Virus record (IMG/VR): IMGVR_UViG_3300033153_005158
Location: 1 to 21,842 of that record
Reading direction: 5' to 3' (one strand)
Source: a virus
Length of the DNA: 21,842 nucleotides
In this document: positions 6,741-21,842 of the stretch, in pieces
Numbering within the stretch: the stretch's first letter is position 1
Layout of the letters: each line of letters begins with the position of its first letter
Translations under genes and position numbers: made by a program
Notes under the pieces: model-generated
The model's input: only the letters and a program-made list of their open reading frames with translations
Told to the model about the DNA's origin: nothing
The model's database searches: none

Positions 6741-6989
6741 TTATTCATCATCTGTCATATCAATCTCACGCAATTGGCCCACTTGTGAGGTATAATTAAA
6801 CACCCGGAAATCGGATGCGTCTAAATCCCACACCAACTCCATTCCTTTTGGCATAGTCTTCTCTTTCTTGCTATCCTTGATCTTTGTAGACAAGAATGTC
6901 TCTGGTACATCATTTAACTTGACGAACGTCATGTGACGAAAATCATCATTCTTCTTCTTGAACATTCCTGTGTATATTTTACTCATCAT
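6741..6989 (-). CDS. Small SH3-like beta-barrel protein, function unknown
   Basis: An 82-residue soluble protein with alternating hydrophobic residues, the segment KIYTGMFKKKND, and a central MPKGMELVWDLDASDFRVFNY stretch. The pattern of a basic YTGxFKKK opening, FVKL strand and GMELVWDL...FRVFN resembles small phage proteins often labelled 'SH3 beta-barrel fold'. I recognise this by pattern only. Two adjacent ATGs (6989, 6986) follow an AAGGAG site; either is possible. It overlaps the FtsZ-like gene by 11 bases, so the two are translationally coupled. Role unknown; a nucleic-acid or protein-binding accessory of replication is plausible from position. Confidence 0.75.
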   Translation of the reverse strand: MMSKIYTGMFKKKNDDFRHMTFVKLNDVPETFLSTKIKDSKKEKTMPKGMELVWDLDASDFRVFNYTSQVGQLREIDMTDDE

Positions 6990-7824
6990 AATCTACTCCT
7001 TGTATGATTTTTGTGTTTGCTAATATATAAATATAATTTTGATCGTAGGGTGTAGGATACACCCCAAATCCTGTTCTAATGGTTGGATCGTTCTGTTTCA
7101 CCCTTCTCTTGATGTTAGACAGTAGATTAGGATCCTCATCTAGCTGCTTTTGGCTTATGGCAAAATAATAGTTCTTTTCACTAGTAAATTTAAGTGGAAA
7201 GAAAAGTTGATCTGCCATCTTCTCAATCGTCCCTACGCCAATTGTTGATATGCGTGAGATGTCATCAGACTCTAAAAAGTTGGAAAAATTGGCCGGTAAA
7301 TTTTTGTAGACATTCAACATATGGAAAGTGGATGATATTACGGAGTTTATCTTCTGGTAATACTGTGAAAGGGGGATGGCCCCCACCACTCTCTCTATGT
7401 CACTGTTACACACAACGTACATTCTTTCAAATACTCCGGATCTCGCATATTGCTGAAGAATTCCAAAGACTATCTTATCTCGTGTAATTTCCATTGGCCC
7501 ACTGGTTGATACATCTGGTCTGATATATAAAATTTCAATAGGGTTATCTGAGACACATTCTAAGGCTCGCAATCCTGCATGCGATATCTTTCCGCCGCCT
7601 GCGACCACTAGAACCACTGGAGTTTTAATCTTCTTCAGTGAAGAGGCAACCTTGGTTGGAAACTTTTCCTCATAGTCTTGGGCCGACTGCCTCTCGGGTA
7701 TCGAAAGACAATTGTTTTTCTTTTCAAGATCGGTATCAATCTTGTACACCTCGTACTGTTCGTGTTCGTTCAGAAGATCTGCTATTTTGCAGCCCGCATT
7801 TCCAAGACCAATAACGCTAATCAT
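6979..7824 (-). CDS. Divergent FtsZ/tubulin-superfamily protein
   Basis: A 281-residue protein with the layout of a tubulin/FtsZ GTPase domain. The N-terminal strand-loop ISVIGLGNAGCKI (2-14) matches the FtsZ T1 loop (GVGGGGxNAV type). YKIDTD (27-32) matches the T3 region AVNTD. VVLVVAGGGKISHAG (70-84) occupies the position of the GGGTGTG signature loop. A long helix at about 154-172 is followed by SNFLESDDISRI (181-192), in the place of the catalytic T7 loop (FtsZ NxDxxD). The signature loop is strongly altered: GGG is kept but TGTG is replaced. The C-terminal tail of cellular FtsZ is missing. A cytomotive filament role, by analogy with PhuZ or TubZ, is possible but unproven; the protein might bind nucleotide without polymerising. 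It overlaps the MazG-like gene by 8 bases and the SH3-like gene by 11. Confidence 0.75.
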   Translation of the reverse strand: MISVIGLGNAGCKIADLLNEHEQYEVYKIDTDLEKKNNCLSIPERQSAQDYEEKFPTKVASSLKKIKTPVVLVVAGGGKISHAGLRALECVSDNPIEILYIRPDVSTSGPMEITRDKIVFGILQQYARSGVFERMYVVCNSDIERVVGAIPLSQYYQKINSVISSTFHMLNVYKNLPANFSNFLESDDISRISTIGVGTIEKMADQLFFPLKFTSEKNYYFAISQKQLDEDPNLLSNIKRRVKQNDPTIRTGFGVYPTPYDQNYIYILANTKIIQGVDYDE

Positions 7825-8134
7825 CTTCAGCCTCTAACAGAATCCACCGCTCATTGAAAGAGCCTCTCTCTTGTGCCTTTTGAATCCGCGCCGTTACTAA
7901 GTCTGGTGTTGTGTACTCCATCGCAGACATGAGCGCGCTCATTACATCGGCGATGTCTGCTAGCTCCTCGATAGAGGGAGAGTCGTTGAACTCTTCGGCC
8001 TCTTCCAATAGCTTCTTCTTCAAGTAAGATAAATATTCTTCATCACTCTTTGCTCTGAAGAACACACATTCCTTACCTTTCTCTTTCAAAATTTCAGGAA
8101 TCTTATCCCGAACTAACTTGTCATAAAATGTCAT
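7817..8134 (-). CDS. MazG-like nucleoside triphosphate pyrophosphohydrolase
   Basis: An all-alpha NTP pyrophosphatase of the 'YDKLVRDKIP' type (phosphoribosyl-ATP pyrophosphohydrolase-like fold). These enzymes hydrolyse (d)NTPs to monophosphate and pyrophosphate, as house-cleaning or to adjust nucleotide pools. In the 105-residue protein, the opening FYDKLVRDKIPEIL is diagnostic. The metal-binding helices carry LLEEAEEF (about 42-49) and EELADIAD (about 56-63), the ExxE/ExxD pattern. The C-terminal RGSFNERWIL is also typical. Its ATG overlaps the polymerase stop (ATGA) and its end overlaps the FtsZ-like gene by 8 bases. Next to a DNA polymerase and in the same genome as a nucleotide reductase, dNTP management is the natural role; the exact substrate is unknown. 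Confidence 0.88.
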   Translation of the reverse strand: MTFYDKLVRDKIPEILKEKGKECVFFRAKSDEEYLSYLKKKLLEEAEEFNDSPSIEELADIADVMSALMSAMEYTTPDLVTARIQKAQERGSFNERWILLEAEDD

Positions 8135-9321
8135 AACCTAATCTCCTTCATATTTCCAAAATCTTTTCCAGCACTCATGTTCACAGCAAATTTTCCGAAT
8201 CGAGTGGAGGCAAACATTTTTTTGATCCCTGCCATATTATACCTCTCTTCTGCGGGAATGTCAAGCACAAAACTATCATGAATCAAAAAAACTATTTTTG
8301 ACGGCGATGACTTCAAGAATTTTTGTATACCCAAGACCTTTTCGAGGACCAAATCGCTGGTTGTACTCTGTATAATATAGTTCAAGGCATAATGTCTGCT
8401 AGCTTCTATCTCCCTTCCGAAAGGTGTCTTTACTGTAGTGCCATTCCAATATTTAGATAGTACCAGTTCCCGATCATATGTCTTGTTTAATGTTTCATCT
8501 TTTGATTCCGGATTGTACAACCAAGCAAACACTCTTTTCTTCGCCTCTTCTCTTGTTACATTATCATTAAATATATTTTTCACATTCCACTCATGTATAT
8601 CGCCGGCCGGTTGCGGCATTTCCATTAGCGCCAAGAGCGTTCTCAGTTCTGCTGCGTTGTAATCGAACTCTACAAAGAGATCATTATTTGGCTTAACTAC
8701 TTTACGAAAGTTTTTTGGCAGATTTAAAATTGGAAAACTATTTTTCCCTACTGTGAGCCTGCCTGTCACCGAGCCGAATTGATTATAAGATATCGTGTTG
8801 TTCACACCGCTCAACCTCTTAAGTTGCCGCCTAACCGTCAAAGAGGATACATCGTTTTTCATAGCTGTCAGATCTATCTTTAGATTATTCTTTTTGATAT
8901 CGTAAAACAATCTTTCTAAGCTAGACATCTTGTTATAGTTGTGAGGCCTATCTAGATTAGAAAAAGCCCACTCTATAATCTCACATTTAACTTGGGAGTA
9001 TTCTTTTAAGAACCATTGCGGAATAATATCATAGGCGCATGCTGTGCCGGCTTCCATCTTCGAGACCAGTACTGCGTTCTGGAATGCTAGCCTCTTTTCC
9101 TGTAGGCGCGCCCACTCATCTTTTAAGTGGGCAGGGCACACCTCTGTCAGGGATCTTCCACCCGCATACAAGCTCGTGTATTCAGTCATTTCGGGCCCGA
9201 GATCACCTTTGTAATCCCACGTTACGAATTGCTTGCTTGTCTTGTCTTCCTTGATATCCCCATTATAATAGTAACCCAAACACTCTTTTCTTGAATCTAA
9301 AACAGTAAAAATATTATCCAA
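8131..9321 (-). CDS. Minimal family-A DNA polymerase
   Basis: Template-directed DNA polymerase, palm and fingers of the Pol I type. In 396 residues: QFGSVTGRL (181-189) precedes motif A EFDYNAAELR (218-227, catalytic Asp220). The O-helix R257-x3-K261-x3-F265-x3-Y269 matches Taq Arg659/Lys663/Phe667/Tyr671, but the final Gly of YG is Asn. NYIIQSTTSD (314-323) matches the NxxxQ segment. Motif C is LIHDS (346-350), with Asp349 kept but Ser in place of the usual Glu of HDE. There is no 3'-5' exonuclease domain, and the roughly 170 residues before motif A are too few for a normal exonuclease-plus-thumb. No ATG is available in frame; TTG at 9321 is the likely start, with coupling to the upstream gene whose TGA is adjacent. 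The 5' nuclease is a separate gene in this window; a separate proofreading protein may lie outside it. Confidence 0.9.
   Translation of the reverse strand: MDNIFTVLDSRKECLGYYYNGDIKEDKTSKQFVTWDYKGDLGPEMTEYTSLYAGGRSLTEVCPAHLKDEWARLQEKRLAFQNAVLVSKMEAGTACAYDIIPQWFLKEYSQVKCEIIEWAFSNLDRPHNYNKMSSLERLFYDIKKNNLKIDLTAMKNDVSSLTVRRQLKRLSGVNNTISYNQFGSVTGRLTVGKNSFPILNLPKNFRKVVKPNNDLFVEFDYNAAELRTLLALMEMPQPAGDIHEWNVKNIFNDNVTREEAKKRVFAWLYNPESKDETLNKTYDRELVLSKYWNGTTVKTPFGREIEASRHYALNYIIQSTTSDLVLEKVLGIQKFLKSSPSKIVFLIHDSFVLDIPAEERYNMAGIKKMFASTRFGKFAVNMSAGKDFGNMKEIRL
8236..8264 (-). promoter_or_regulatory. Perfect sigma-70 promoter inside the polymerase gene (P-pol-int)
   Basis: On the minus strand TTGACA (8264-8259), 17 bases, TATAAT (8241-8236), with the GCTTGACA context seen in the other sites. 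It lies within the last 45 codons of the polymerase gene, about 100 bases before the MazG-like start. It should allow mazG-like, FtsZ-like and SH3-like genes to be transcribed independently of the polymerase. Confidence 0.85.
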
Positions 9322-9322
9322 T

Positions 9323-10537
9323 TCAATCTCTCTTTCTGTTAAAATTGAAACTCCCCTTGCGGTACTCTTCTATTTGAAGGTGCTCTCCAGGAGCGCGCTT
9401 CACTTCCTTATCTATGAACTTTAATGCGGTGCGGCCGCCGGAATGAATAAGGAAGTCACGCGCTCTTTCGACTACGTGATCAAACTTATGCTGATCCCAA
9501 TCCCGATTGGTCTCCTTGGCCCTTACATAGGCATAGAGGCGAATCCAAAATAAATTATTATACCTTGAATTATATATGCCACGATCCATTATAACACGTT
9601 CTTTTACATTTGTCAAGCTGATTGTTTTGCCATTTTCATTAACAACTTCGTGCGTACGGATCTTGGGGAATTGGCGTACAAAAGAATTGTAGAAGTTCAT
9701 CAAGTGTGCCTTTAAAGTCGGAATGTCAAACAAAGAAGACTTATAATAATATTTTCCAAACATTGTATCTAAACTAACATCATATTTTTTTAAAAGTTTC
9801 GCCATCACTTCGGATCCGACATCTGCTATTAGGCGCCATGGTGCATTCATGTCTACGGCGAACCCGTTTCTACTAGCAATCTCACGATATAATTCAAAAT
9901 TAACATTATTAACAAATTCAGTTATCTTCCCGATATCATCTCCGTGTTCCTTCTCGGCGAACTCAATCACTAAGCCACTCACCAACGGAGAGGAATATTT
10001 ACTTGTGATATACTCTGTCTTAGTGAGAGGGACGGCCATAGAAATCCTGTTGACTAAGCGCGTGAAGGCAGTGATAAAATCATCGAAGTTTTCAATGTCT
10101 CCTATTCTGCTTGGATCTGACATGAATGGCATCAGAAAGCTATCATAATAATCTCTCACGTAGTTATCATAATTGGCATTGATACTAATCCAAGATTTTG
10201 TAGGCTCAAAACGATCCATAAAAGGAGTGCCGTCAATATTGATGAAATGATTCTGTGTCTCTTGGAAAAGCATGTCCCTTCGAAACGACTCATACGCATC
10301 AGCAACAAAATCAAGTACAAAATAAGTACCACTCTCAGAGTCCAGTTGTTTCAGAAACGCTTCTGAGGGATACACTATATCACCTTGTTTGTTTACTCTT
10401 CCAAACAACATTTCGTTATACCAAAAATCAATTTTTCTGTAGTCTCTCATACCGGCTGGGAACTGCCTAATATATTCTTGACGCTGAAAAAACAACTCTC
10501 TGGCACGTGCCTCATTATTGGCGTAAGTAAGTTTCAT
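9323..10537 (-). CDS. Probable virion structural protein, function unknown
   Basis: A 404-residue soluble protein, rich in Phe/Tyr, Asn and Asp, with no signal peptide or membrane segment. The region INIDGTPFMDRFEPTKSWIS (about 105) and a segment FAVDMNAPWRLIADVGS... (about 235), followed by KYYYKSSLFD, recall hypothetical structural proteins of environmental myophages. I cannot name a T4 counterpart. Its ATG overlaps the stop of the 989-residue baseplate gene (ATGA), so it belongs to the structural operon and is its last visible member. The 3' part of its coding sequence contains a perfect promoter firing into the replication genes, so its codons serve two purposes. A baseplate or tail-fibre-attachment role is possible from position only. 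Confidence 0.7.
   Translation of the reverse strand: MKLTYANNEARARELFFQRQEYIRQFPAGMRDYRKIDFWYNEMLFGRVNKQGDIVYPSEAFLKQLDSESGTYFVLDFVADAYESFRRDMLFQETQNHFINIDGTPFMDRFEPTKSWISINANYDNYVRDYYDSFLMPFMSDPSRIGDIENFDDFITAFTRLVNRISMAVPLTKTEYITSKYSSPLVSGLVIEFAEKEHGDDIGKITEFVNNVNFELYREIASRNGFAVDMNAPWRLIADVGSEVMAKLLKKYDVSLDTMFGKYYYKSSLFDIPTLKAHLMNFYNSFVRQFPKIRTHEVVNENGKTISLTNVKERVIMDRGIYNSRYNNLFWIRLYAYVRAKETNRDWDQHKFDHVVERARDFLIHSGGRTALKFIDKEVKRAPGEHLQIEEYRKGSFNFNRKRD
9588..9616 (-). promoter_or_regulatory. Perfect sigma-70 promoter inside the last structural gene (P-pol)
   Basis: On the minus strand TTGACA (9616-9611), 17 bases, TATAAT (9593-9588), with GCTTGACA context and an extended TGT before the -10. 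It lies in coding sequence 267 bases before the TTG start of the polymerase gene, at the boundary between the late structural and early replication modules. The leader RNA would read the last 85 or so codons of the 404-residue gene before the polymerase start. Confidence 0.88.
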
Positions 10538-17830: not shown

Positions 17831-17861
17831 AATAAAAGAGCACCATCGATGCTCTTTTATT
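17831..17861 (-). terminator. Rho-independent terminator after the tail chaperone genes
   Basis: A perfect 12-base-pair stem AATAAAAGAGCA / TGCTCTTTTATT with a 7-base loop (17843-17849). On the minus strand it is followed by TTTTTAAATTA. The stem begins 5 bases after the stop of the short downstream frame of the chaperone. It could also act on plus-strand transcripts. It separates the sheath-tube-chaperone transcript from the tape measure group. Confidence 0.85.
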
Positions 17862-17866
17862 GCTTC

Positions 17867-18040
17867 CTATCTACTCTTATTAGCTTCGTTCTCCATCTCT
17901 AATTGCTTGACTAGCCGTTTGGTGAACCACACCCTCAACTGAACTGGAAGATTATACGCCTCGAACAAGCTCCACCCGCCATAATACTTAAGGGAGTGAA
18001 ACTGTTCATAAACCTGTTCCATATAATCAGGCGTCAGGCC
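17867..18040 (-). CDS. Downstream frame of the tail assembly chaperone (probable frameshift extension)
   Basis: Behind the 7-T run that ends the gp26-like gene, the +1 frame (equivalently -2) is open for 57 codons, from GGC at 18040 to TAG at 17867. It encodes GLTPDYMEQVYEQFHSLKYY followed by GGWSLFEAYNLPVQLRVWF and a charged helix. It includes an ATG at 18022 (51 residues), but no ribosome site precedes it, and that ATG lies only 7 bases from the end of the upstream frame. The 'LPVxLRxWF' helix resembles the second-frame (T-like) part of tail assembly chaperones in other phages (by pattern). Expression as a fusion of about 354 residues with the upstream protein is inferred, not shown; independent re-initiation at the ATG is the alternative. 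Confidence 0.75.
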   Translation of the reverse strand, partial: GLTPDYMEQVYEQFHSLKYYGGWSLFEAYNLPVQLRVWFTKRLVKQLEMENEANKSR

Positions 18041-18932
18041 AAAAAAACCGAGGCGTAATAGGTACCTCTAATTCCTGTTCGTAATCACATGTTTCGCAGA
18101 CGAACTCCTGCTTTAAATCGATATTTGGTGTCAACTCTTTAAACGCTTTGCGTAGAAATCTAGAATCAGAGGCTGGCATAGAGTTGATAAAGCTCTCTTT
18201 CTCTAGAGGATTTGAAATTCCATTTACAGAAACCACCACCCTCTTAAAATGTTCTGTCAAAGCATTCTCTGGTAATTTCTTCTTTTTTCGCATTTCTGCT
18301 GCACGAGTAATGTCTCCCTCGTCTTTACCATTCAGCAATCTCACCTCGACAACAACGGCGGATTTTGGCAAGGTAATGAGATATGTCGATCCGCCAGCAT
18401 ATTCCAGTCCGGCGCCTAAGTCAGCATCCCCACTCTCCAGATCAACTGGCCCTTTGTTTGGGCATGCGCTGAGATCAAAACCATGATCTTTATCCTCGTA
18501 ACCACACAATGGGCACGAAACAGCTGTCTCATAGAGGGCGCCGTAAGCACTAATGCGTGCAGCGACAAGAAGGGCGTTCCTATCTCCGATCAACAGTTCT
18601 TCTGTCTTAATTGATTTGTTCACAATCAGACTTCGGAGCAGACGGTCAAAGAGAATCCCTTTTTTAAGAAAGGATTCTGTTGTAAGAATGTCCTCTTCTC
18701 TAGCTGTCATCTCTTTGATCTCTACCTCTCCCACTCCGTGAAGAGAGCTGCCTTCTGGATAAAATTGTCCTTTAGACGGTAGTTCAACTATCTCAGTGGG
18801 AACAACATACGATAGTTGATTAGAATTAGGTGCTGGGTTTGATATAGCATCAATCACAGGCGGAGCTTCCCCGGATTGCTGTGCGCCGGGCGCAGGCATT
18901 CCGAGACGATCCTCGTTATTTCTTCTTGTCAT
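18027..18932 (-). CDS. T4 gp26/gp51-type baseplate/tail assembly chaperone
   Basis: Assembly protein of the T4 baseplate-chaperone family. In 301 residues, a Pro/Ser/Asn-rich N-terminus leads to the hallmark LPSKGQFYPEG (51-61), followed by VEIKEMTAREEDIL (70-83) and a helical core. Two cysteine pairs, Cys140-x2-Cys143 and Cys279-x2-Cys282, suggest a zinc ribbon. It ends ITPRFFWPDA. It lies between the tail tube and the tape measure gene, exactly where lambda-type phages place gpG/gpGT, which bind the tape measure during assembly. At codons 296-298 the mRNA runs CGG TTT TTT TGG, a 7-T slippery tract (18047-18041), and an overlapping frame follows (17867-18040). This supports a chaperone role with a minor frameshifted form. 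An AGAGAGG ribosome site precedes the ATG. Confidence 0.87.
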   Translation of the reverse strand: MTRRNNEDRLGMPAPGAQQSGEAPPVIDAISNPAPNSNQLSYVVPTEIVELPSKGQFYPEGSSLHGVGEVEIKEMTAREEDILTTESFLKKGILFDRLLRSLIVNKSIKTEELLIGDRNALLVAARISAYGALYETAVSCPLCGYEDKDHGFDLSACPNKGPVDLESGDADLGAGLEYAGGSTYLITLPKSAVVVEVRLLNGKDEGDITRAAEMRKKKKLPENALTEHFKRVVVSVNGISNPLEKESFINSMPASDSRFLRKAFKELTPNIDLKQEFVCETCDYEQELEVPITPRFFWPDA

Positions 18933-18971: not shown

Positions 18972-19520
18972 TTAAGGATTAAAGGTCTCCAATTCAAACC
19001 AATCATATCTGATATCCATCGTGATGGTCATCAAGTCTTCGCTGTCATACGTGAGATCACCACCAAAATTAACTTTAGTTATCCATGGATTTTTAAGAAT
19101 TGTACGCTCAATGGTGTTTCCATCGCCGTCCAACATTACGATAACAGCGTTGTTCATAGCACCTGTGGCCAGTCTTTTGCTGACCGTACTTGCCATGGTA
19201 GAGTCGGCACCCACTGCATCTGTAATGGTGCTGGGGAGCTGATACCCTGAATCTTGAATCAGCTTGTACAATTGTTCCGTAGCATGAGGATTTGCTGGAT
19301 CTACCATCTCCACACTAATAGTGTTATATTCTACGCTACCAGGATAGTAAAACGTATGATTGAGAAACTTGTGTGTGCCCTCGTTGATAGTCATCTCCGG
19401 CTTATTAACTTTCTTACATATGTAAGTGATGTTTTCGGATAGGCCGGCTACACCCAATTCGAGTATCCATCTAAACGATCTCTTAGGATCTGCTACTTGT
19501 GCGTCTTTCCAAAATGGCAT
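18972..19520 (-). CDS. Tail tube protein, T4 gp19 family
   Basis: Forms the stacked rings of the inner tail tube. The 182-residue protein starts MPFWKDAQVADPKRSFRW and alternates beta strands with ITYICKKVNKPEM, HKFLNHTFYYPGSVEYNTISVEMVDP and a C-terminal VNFGGDLTYDSEDLMTITMDIRYDWFELE. The 'FxxKKVxKPxxxxxxxxHxFLNHxFxYPGxxxWxxIxxxxVDP' pattern and the C-terminal strand pair are those of gp19-like tube proteins in T4-related phages. Length is close to T4 gp19 (163). It follows the sheath gene after a 55-base gap containing an inverted repeat, and the ribosome site TAGGAG lies 10 bases before the ATG. It is probably one of the most abundant virion proteins. Confidence 0.9.
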   Translation of the reverse strand: MPFWKDAQVADPKRSFRWILELGVAGLSENITYICKKVNKPEMTINEGTHKFLNHTFYYPGSVEYNTISVEMVDPANPHATEQLYKLIQDSGYQLPSTITDAVGADSTMASTVSKRLATGAMNNAVIVMLDGDGNTIERTILKNPWITKVNFGGDLTYDSEDLMTITMDIRYDWFELETFNP

Positions 19521-19575: not shown

Positions 19576-21842
19576 TTAGTCCTCAAAACCTGCTCCTGTT
19601 TTTGTAATAACAAAATCAAGTGCAATAAACTCAATGGCGCGCGCGGGTTTCAAGAAAATCTTAGCATATAAGATATTCCTATCAATCAAATCCGGCGTCG
19701 TAGTGGTCTGATCTAACACCACCTTATAGTCTGTGAGCCCCAACCTTGTCTGGATACTTCCTAGGAAAGGATTGACCTGACCCAAGAACCTGTTCCACGT
19801 AGCGTTCACGTTTTGTTCGAACAACAGTGTGGCAGAAATTCTAGATATCTCACGTTTTACATAAATCATCAATCTACGTACATTAATTCTATCCAACGCA
19901 GACCGTGTGACTTGAAGCGTCTTTTGGCCAAAGATTACAATACCTTCCGCTGGAAACTGTGCAATCGGATTAATATTCGCGTTATAGAGATCGTCTCTTT
20001 CTTTGGAATTTAATCTTGAGCGCACATTCGTAACCGGAAGACCTGCACTACCCTCGGTTAGTCCGCCGCGAGTAAAGCCGGCAGGAGCAAACCAGAGTTC
20101 GCTAGATGCCTGACTGCTAGCAAGAGTTCCGAGAACCACTACACTAGGTGGTACCCATAAAGAGCCTCCTGTGGTAACGGTATCTGTCACTTGAACCCAA
20201 GGATAATAAGTACATCCATAACTATTATTAATATTTCTATTGTCCAATAAGTCAATTGTATTTTGTACAGTGCCAATTCGGGCTGAGTCAGATAGAGACG
20301 CATTTTCGCCTGGCGGAGTATACTCTCCAGGAAGGTCAACAATGGCCAATGCATCTGCGCGCGCTTCGCACACGTCCAACAATTTGCTAGTAAGGTTGGT
20401 ATTCAACAGTCCTGGAACAGTCATCATGTTGCATTCCACTACATCAGCGTCTGCTACACTATCAATTGCACGGTCGTATGTGGCATATTCATAACTAGAA
20501 ATTGCGTTTAGACCAACCATTGCTGTATTCCTAAAAGGCTCTTTCTCAAGGATGTTAACCCCTTCAAAGCCTTCACTTATGACGGTTGTAAATTGTTTGA
20601 ATCCCTCTAAGAGGACAGACTGATACGAACCGGATGCCGTAAATGAATCACCTGTTCGGCGTGAGCCAGATACCCAAGCAGCGGAGGCGCCGTTTGTTGC
20701 CGAGCCAGTCGTCAAATCATCCAGAGAGAATATCCAAGAATATTCTAGTGCAGCAGGAATCGTAGTGAAGACACCAGTTCCTTCGGGTTTGCGGCGCAGC
20801 ATATCTCTGATGCTGGCTTCCACACGGTTGCTGTCTACCCTATTGCTAGTTGCTCCAAAGTAAGATTCTTTCTGATCAGTGATTATACCTTCATTGCTAA
20901 GTGTCCTAGTCGGAACAGATGGAAACTCAAAGCTTGCAGTAAATGGTACATTGCCGGCGTTTATGAAGTGGGTGCTAGCAAGTGAATCCGGGATATCATT
21001 GTTCCCTAACACGTATGCCACTCCAGAATCGACGCCAGTGTCCACTCCTAGGGCCGCTGGGCCGGTGCCGCCACTAATGGCAGTAAAACCCTTCCACCTA
21101 GTTGGTCCGTAAACTCCAAATGGCAAGAATTTAGCATCGCCGCTAGCATCTCTAACTGAAGCATCTACCTCTACGCGTATATAGCGAGATTGGTTTACAT
21201 AATCGCCGTAGCTCACATACCTCTTATCGCCGGTATCCCACTCAGTATAAGAATCCCCTATTCGACGCGCAATATAGTTCGGAGAATTTGGATTTAAATT
21301 AACGTCACTATAAGTTTCTACGGGTCTAGGATTGTTATCGCTATCTGTCATTCCACGAACTGAGACACTGAAGTATCCAAAAGGATTCGCGACGTTATTT
21401 GATGGAGTGATACTAGTAATGGATATTTTCAAATTGTTTTGTTGCCATTCGCCGCCACCCAGACCATGAAATCTAAAAAGCTTTTGCATGTTCAGTGCAT
21501 CATATGACGAAGCATCTCCCAAATCTTGAGAAAAGAACCATCCTGTAAAAGAATCTTTAAGCTCTGTGTGCTGAATGTGCTGATCAACACTTGATGAGGC
21601 TAGGCCTAAAATGGTAGCATATCCGGTGAGGCCGGCGGTGCCGATGCCTCCTGATATATCTGTTACACTTCGTTCGAAAGACTCTCCGAGAAAGTATGTC
21701 TTTGATGCGTCTGACGGATTGACCGCCGGATCGTTATTACAAAGCGCTGGATTAGTGTTAAAGACATTCCGGATGAACAATTTACTGTTTTCATCAAAAT
21801 TGAAAACTACCTTTTCTAAGACGGCGCCTGTTTCGTCTTTAA
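19576..21842 (-). CDS. Contractile tail sheath protein, T4 gp18 family (5' end outside window)
   Basis: Outer sheath subunit whose contraction drives tail-tube penetration. The frame is open to the window edge, so at least 755 codons are present and the N-terminus is missing. The TTG at 21780 is an internal Leu, because the upstream in-frame codons read ...VVFNFDENSK and join smoothly to LFIRNVFNTNPALCNND, the conserved N-terminal part of gp18-like sheaths. The C-terminal domain shows NPIAQFPAEGIVIFGQKT, LDRINVRRLMIYVKREI and a final beta segment ARAIEFIALDFVITKTG, all characteristic of gp18. A large variable middle part (about residues 150-420 of the visible part) probably forms the surface-exposed domains. 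T4 gp18 is 659 residues, so this sheath is longer. It heads the tail operon seen here. Confidence 0.93.
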   Translation of the reverse strand, partial: KDETGAVLEKVVFNFDENSKLFIRNVFNTNPALCNNDPAVNPSDASKTYFLGESFERSVTDISGGIGTAGLTGYATILGLASSSVDQHIQHTELKDSFTGWFFSQDLGDASSYDALNMQKLFRFHGLGGGEWQQNNLKISITSITPSNNVANPFGYFSVSVRGMTDSDNNPRPVETYSDVNLNPNSPNYIARRIGDSYTEWDTGDKRYVSYGDYVNQSRYIRVEVDASVRDASGDAKFLPFGVYGPTRWKGFTAISGGTGPAALGVDTGVDSGVAYVLGNNDIPDSLASTHFINAGNVPFTASFEFPSVPTRTLSNEGIITDQKESYFGATSNRVDSNRVEASIRDMLRRKPEGTGVFTTIPAALEYSWIFSLDDLTTGSATNGASAAWVSGSRRTGDSFTASGSYQSVLLEGFKQFTTVISEGFEGVNILEKEPFRNTAMVGLNAISSYEYATYDRAIDSVADADVVECNMMTVPGLLNTNLTSKLLDVCEARADALAIVDLPGEYTPPGENASLSDSARIGTVQNTIDLLDNRNINNSYGCTYYPWVQVTDTVTTGGSLWVPPSVVVLGTLASSQASSELWFAPAGFTRGGLTEGSAGLPVTNVRSRLNSKERDDLYNANINPIAQFPAEGIVIFGQKTLQVTRSALDRINVRRLMIYVKREISRISATLLFEQNVNATWNRFLGQVNPFLGSIQTRLGLTDYKVVLDQTTTTPDLIDRNILYAKIFLKPARAIEFIALDFVITKTGAGFED

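Follow-up and report, generated by a model that had tools for sequence, protein, structure and literature searches.

The question raised by this locus is whether the gene lying between the tail tube and probable tape measure genes of the window (the whole 21,842-nucleotide stretch of viral DNA that was analysed), which ends on a run of seven T with a second open frame behind it, is decoded by programmed frameshifting and, if so, in which direction. The order of genes is sheath, tube, PF12322 gene and probable tape measure (Table 1). A profile search places PF12322, the family of the T4 gp26 and gp51 proteins, over residues 49–298 of the product (E=1.1e-9, over the cut-off), and the last position of the model falls on residue 298, which is the slip site; the same product matches PHROG 150. 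The 822-residue ORF that follows gave no convincing family match in Pfam or PHROG and no significant match to the tape measure of phage immuto, with which it shares its place in the gene order, and its identification as a tape measure is probable by position and size. Taking the comparisons below together, this gene of a distant T4-type phage very probably specifies its tail assembly chaperone, made in a short form and, through a conserved programmed +1 frameshift, a long form.

Table 1. Features of the tail region of the window, with the predicted slip site and second frame.
Feature	Position	Strand	Remark
Tail sheath	19576..21780	minus	PHROG 23, E=1.1e-60
Tail tube, upstream neighbour	18972..19520	minus	PHROG 4542, E=2.2e-21
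TAC-N ('G') short form, PF12322 / T4 gp26-gp51 type	18027..18932	minus	301 aa
Codon CGG before the T run	18050-18048	minus	
Seven-T run (TTT TTT T)	18047-18041	minus	
Predicted slip codons TTT TTT, followed by TGG	18042..18047	minus	P-site Phe codon, UUU to UUU in +1
TGA stop of short form	18027..18029	minus	
T domain, +1 frame	17867..18040	minus	57 codons (first GGC, at 18040) and TAG; selection in this frame; homology to gp51 C-tail, by profile
Intrinsic terminator stem-loop, 3′ of T stop	17831..17861	minus	
Probable tape measure, 822 aa	14956..17424	minus	Position and size only

The remainder of the window, on the same strand, holds a B12-dependent (class II) ribonucleotide reductase (91-1947) and two neighbouring ORFs (8131-9321 and 9323-10537), of which only that of 396 aa matches a family A DNA polymerase and that of 404 aa has no Pfam or PHROG match, so that the polymerase may be a split or partial enzyme. 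A 281-aa ORF (6979-7824) with glycine-rich motifs (GLGNAGCKIADLL, VVAGGGKISHAGLRAL) appears FtsZ/tubulin-like to the eye and has no match in Pfam or PHROG.

The PF12322 gene ends in CGG TTT TTT TGG CCT GAC GCC TGA, and the +1 frame, which is open from 38 nt upstream of the short-form TGA, reads GLTPDYMEQVYEQF...NKSR up to a TAG that lies exactly 5 bases before the terminator stem-loop. The gene end, the 57-codon frame and its distance from the terminator are thus as described in an earlier sequence-only reading of this DNA, which had proposed a frameshift at the T run. The predicted fused product, i.e. the short form joined to the T domain, is 354 aa in length. An extension of this kind is not very rare by length, as 52 open codons have a chance of ∼2.4% under a Markov model of that stretch; extensions of at least 50 codons behind other genes of the window are merely the next gene. 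Since the open frame alone is not very improbable, it is the comparison with relatives that decides, and the evidence for the +1 frame is comparative: across relatives, the frame is conserved as a protein.

The window (L001) and two close relatives (L002 and L003) keep the slip site, and scans of IMG/VR and GTDB contigs with distant relatives as queries yielded ∼200 further loci; the XacN1 protein as query added no further loci. A profile HMM of the T domain was searched in three frames around every gene end, and located the domain in the +1 register at 197 loci, some of which are redundant (164 distinct 150-mers when centred on the slip site), and in the short-form frame at none. A second frame lying in frame with the gene, which the sequence-only reading had named as an observation that would speak against a shift, was therefore never found. 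The −1 frame carries the T domain in five loci, namely L101 and L107, where it is a separate ORF, and L008, L143 and L242. At the HMM threshold no T domain was detected in six loci, comprising distant −1 phages, RM378 and a truncated locus; inspection of RM378 finds the +1 frame at TTT TTT TGG.

The T region is under purifying selection in its +1 frame. Over 60 pairs of relatives, pN/pS in this region is 0.26 in the +1 frame and 1.3–1.6 in the other two, with pN below pS in the +1 frame in 60/60 pairs. Between the window and its 93%-identical relative L002, the T region has accumulated 14 synonymous and 3 nonsynonymous changes. A homopolymer at the break in a metagenomic contig might have suggested that the frame is interrupted by a sequencing error or that the gene has decayed, yet the same break recurs in the 197 loci, which include the isolated phages immuto and Mel-JY01 and sites that are not homopolymers, and selection is strong on both frames. 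We ruled out error and decay on the basis of this recurrence and this selection, and give them a negligible probability.

The sites at which the register changes bear on the kind of slippage. All 197 +1 loci have, at one of two codons, an in-frame UUU before U or C, or a CUU before U. The most frequent site is TTT TTT TGG (99 loci), followed by TTT CTT TGG (38), which is the site of the Flavobacterium phage immuto, TTT TTT TAC (35), TTC TTT TGG (16) and TTT CTA TGG (4), the rest being five single types, among them TTC TTT CGT of Streptococcus phage GXN1. When the codon before the RF2 stop is randomised, the most slippery codon for +1 is CUU, with CCC and UUU next (PMC10885494). The sequence-only reading had asked whether the T run and the second frame always occur together in relatives, and had left the shift as +1 or −2. 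The slip codon does accompany the second frame throughout, whereas a run of seven or eight T is present at 135 sites and is not the conserved element, the other 62 (e.g. TTT CTT TGG, TTC TTT TGG and TTT CTA TGG) having 3–4 T in a row. Transcriptional slippage on the T run, or a ribosomal shift of −2 like that of Mu, would suit the window's seven T but is possible at those 135 sites only; the 62 short-run sites do not permit −2 re-pairing, yet their register and T domain are those of the other sites. As every site permits +1 re-pairing, a +1 ribosomal shift is the sole mechanism that covers them all, and we regard transcriptional slippage or a −2 shift as very improbable. The +1 part of the earlier proposal is thus supported, and the −2 part is not general.

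An ATG at 18022, 4 nt past the short-form TGA, could in principle allow termination–reinitiation to yield T as a separate small protein. Its position directly behind the stop would suit such a process, and in L101 and L107 (3690-3760 in each) T is a separate ORF, extended at its N terminus (MENIDNLLREIQ...) and with its own ATG shortly past the G stop. However, no Shine-Dalgarno-like sequence was seen before the window's ATG, in agreement with the earlier remark that this frame has no ribosome site of its own, and the ATG is absent from L231 and L234 of the window's own clade. Between the preceding stop codon and the tenth codon beyond the slip site, the T frame has no ATG, GTG or TTG at 62 of the 197 loci, or 54/164 when counted on distinct sites, and only 6 of the 164 distinct relatives have an ATG with a Shine-Dalgarno-like 4-mer. 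Such frequent lack of a start codon speaks against independent initiation. In addition, the T frame is conserved upstream of the ATG as far as the slip site (FFGLTP), for which an independently initiated protein would have no need. Reinitiation in the window is accordingly a poor candidate, about as improbable as slippage on the T run. The two separate-T loci fall inside the +1 clade on the tree and have no clear ribosome site for T. The separate second frame that had been named beforehand as a counter-example thus does exist in these two, but since they nest within the +1 group, the frameshift was probably lost there secondarily, and it has apparently been replaced by a split gene. Taken together, the +1 register, the slip codons, the selection and the missing starts make +1 ribosomal frameshifting very likely in the window and its relatives.

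The relation of the two forms to T4 proteins was approached through named phage genomes, in which PF12322 was searched. T4 gp26 and gp51 both belong to this family (T4_baseplate). T4 and RB43 have two PF12322 genes, and no second frame runs on behind their gp26, whereas P-SSM2, Syn9, HTVC008M, phiM12, KVP40, phiW-14, XacN1, RM378, GXN1 and the two huge phages LR756508 and LR756511 have one copy, and in all of these one-copy phages a second frame runs across the gene end. The shift is −1 at T TTT TTC/T in most of them and +1 in RM378, GXN1 and LR756508. An HMM built from the T domains of six −1 phages matches the last ∼50 residues of gp51 in 8/8 proteins (15–32 bits), gives nothing positive on gp26, and scores 15.1 bits on the window's T domain; the best scores over ∼2000 shuffles were 8.9 bits for gp51 and 7.4 bits for the window's T. 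The +1 T profile alone has no significant match to gp51 by hhalign or hmmsearch, and the −1 T domains are needed as a bridge. This bridged profile comparison identifies the T domain as a homologue of the C-terminal tail of T4 gp51, a part that gp26 lacks. As T matches the gp51 tail and not gp26, gp26 corresponds to the short form and gp51 to the long form, in the sense of G and GT. This assignment agrees with earlier work, and the link itself is not new. Cyanophage gp51 has ∼20% of the length of other gp51 proteins and matches their C-terminal region (Sullivan 2010, PMC3037559). The tail chaperones of T4-like phages were identified by Vladimirov, Gautam and Davidson 2022 (Virology 566:9), who, as cited in PMC10885494, describe one short and one long gene in some T4-like phages and, as cited in PMC12846349, poly-T −1 signals in others. 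The proposal of the sequence-only reading that the gene would link T4 baseplate chaperones to lambda-type tail chaperones is thus supported; judging from these citations, it had already been published.

The direction of the shift differs within the family. On a tree of the short forms, the T4/cyanophage group (−1 or two genes) stands apart from the window's group (+1), within which LR756511, XacN1 and L144 mark an inner −1 group. On this topology at least two changes of shift direction would be needed, and the long branches of RM378, XacN1 and phiW-14 blur the details.

Signals outside the slip codons were also sought. The single-sequence fold at the window site gives no support for an RNA stimulator (z=−0.84), nor does an alignment of 15 relatives, in which one pair of 24 covaries, and no upstream Shine-Dalgarno sequence was seen near the window's slip site. 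An AlphaFold model of the short form from 56 sequences has a pLDDT of 86.9 and a pTM of 0.80; a single-sequence model of the fused protein is uninformative (pLDDT 31). A fold search with the short form against 350,542 PDB chains ranks 2ob9, the tail assembly chaperone of HK97, first, but without significance (E=0.25, prob 0.69), so that the modelled likeness is no more than suggestive. The short-form profile has no match among PDB sequences. Against predicted viral structures, the significant matches include many T4-type 'baseplate hub' proteins.

These data are consistent with the following scheme, in which we infer slippage, its rate and the chaperone role. Most ribosomes would stop at the TGA and release TAC-N, the short form, which resembles lambda G and T4 gp26. 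Some would instead slip by +1, as the P-site tRNA-Phe leaves UUU for the UUU that overlaps it; in relatives the move would also be UUU to UUC or CUU to UUU. These ribosomes would then read GGC CTG... and produce TAC-NC, the long form, which resembles lambda GT and T4 gp51. If the lambda model applies, the tape measure protein would carry a coat of many short and few long forms, with the T part recruiting tail tube subunits, and both forms would leave before the tail is finished.

The records of immuto, Mel-JY01 and RM378 list the T domain as a short hypothetical gene (L005:5833-5943, L007:5734-5970 and L112:4701-4877, respectively; that of immuto is truncated), and the long chaperone form is therefore absent from them. 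Two contigs in the collection deserve mention for their origin. The same chaperone gene lies near both ends of NHDW01000006.1 (L239 and L240; 305,838 bases), which is binned as Methylococcaceae; this bacterial binning may be wrong, and the contig may represent a jumbo phage whose genome has redundant ends. A T4-type tail chaperone locus is also found in a chromosome-level MAG of candidate division WOR-3 (L227; CP070664.1, 2763509-2770249), where it may be an integrated phage or an assembly chimera.

In the literature searched, we found no description of the +1 version, of the switch of direction within the family or of a branch where a separate T gene has taken the place of the shift. On balance we favour the broader view that a conserved +1 shift gives rise to the tail chaperone of a large, mostly uncultured T4-type clade. 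The slip would fall on UUU-Y or CUU-U ahead of a sense codon, in most cases UGG or UAC; the A-site holds no stop codon, and no RNA structure is detectable. One family would thus have arrived at four solutions: a −1 shift, a +1 shift, duplication of the gene as in T4, and a T gene that has split off. If true, a +1 signal without an A-site stop codon would be of an unusual type in bacteria. A review describes the tail-chaperone frameshift as conserved in long-tailed phages 'except T4' (PMC5009743); to this exception, and to its later explanation by two genes, would be added that the direction itself has switched within the T4-type family. The ∼200 natural +1 sites, with their variants UUU-UUU, UUU-CUU, UUC-UUU and UUU-CUA, would form a ready mutational series for +1 slippage. 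Current annotations would miss the long forms, giving a 'baseplate hub subunit' and a hypothetical fragment instead.

Among known systems, lambda G/GT and other −1 (in Mu, −2) tail chaperones were reportedly treated by Xu, Hendrix and Duda in 2004. The window's gene resembles lambda G/GT in its place before a probable tape measure (so assigned by position and size), in its predicted short and long forms from one gene and in a predicted shift near the end of the short form, and differs in that the predicted shift is +1, not −1 or −2; it has no detectable sequence similarity to the lambda-type −1/−2 chaperones, and only the weak HK97 fold likeness. A tail gene of the haloarchaeal myovirus HSTV-2 very likely uses a +1 shift (PMC5009743, PMC8211752), which by description places a +1 shift in the G-T position as in the window, although in an archaeal virus. 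The cyanophages, KVP40, phiM12 and phiW-14 share with the window a single PF12322 gene that is overlapped by a T frame (the 'short gp51' downstream), whereas their shift is −1 at T TTT TTC/T and that of the window +1 at UUU-Y. Finally, in T4 itself, both gp26 and gp51, known as baseplate hub chaperones, are like the short form in PF12322 and the gp51 C-tail matches the T domain of the long form, although T4 has two separate genes where the window has one gene and a predicted +1 shift.
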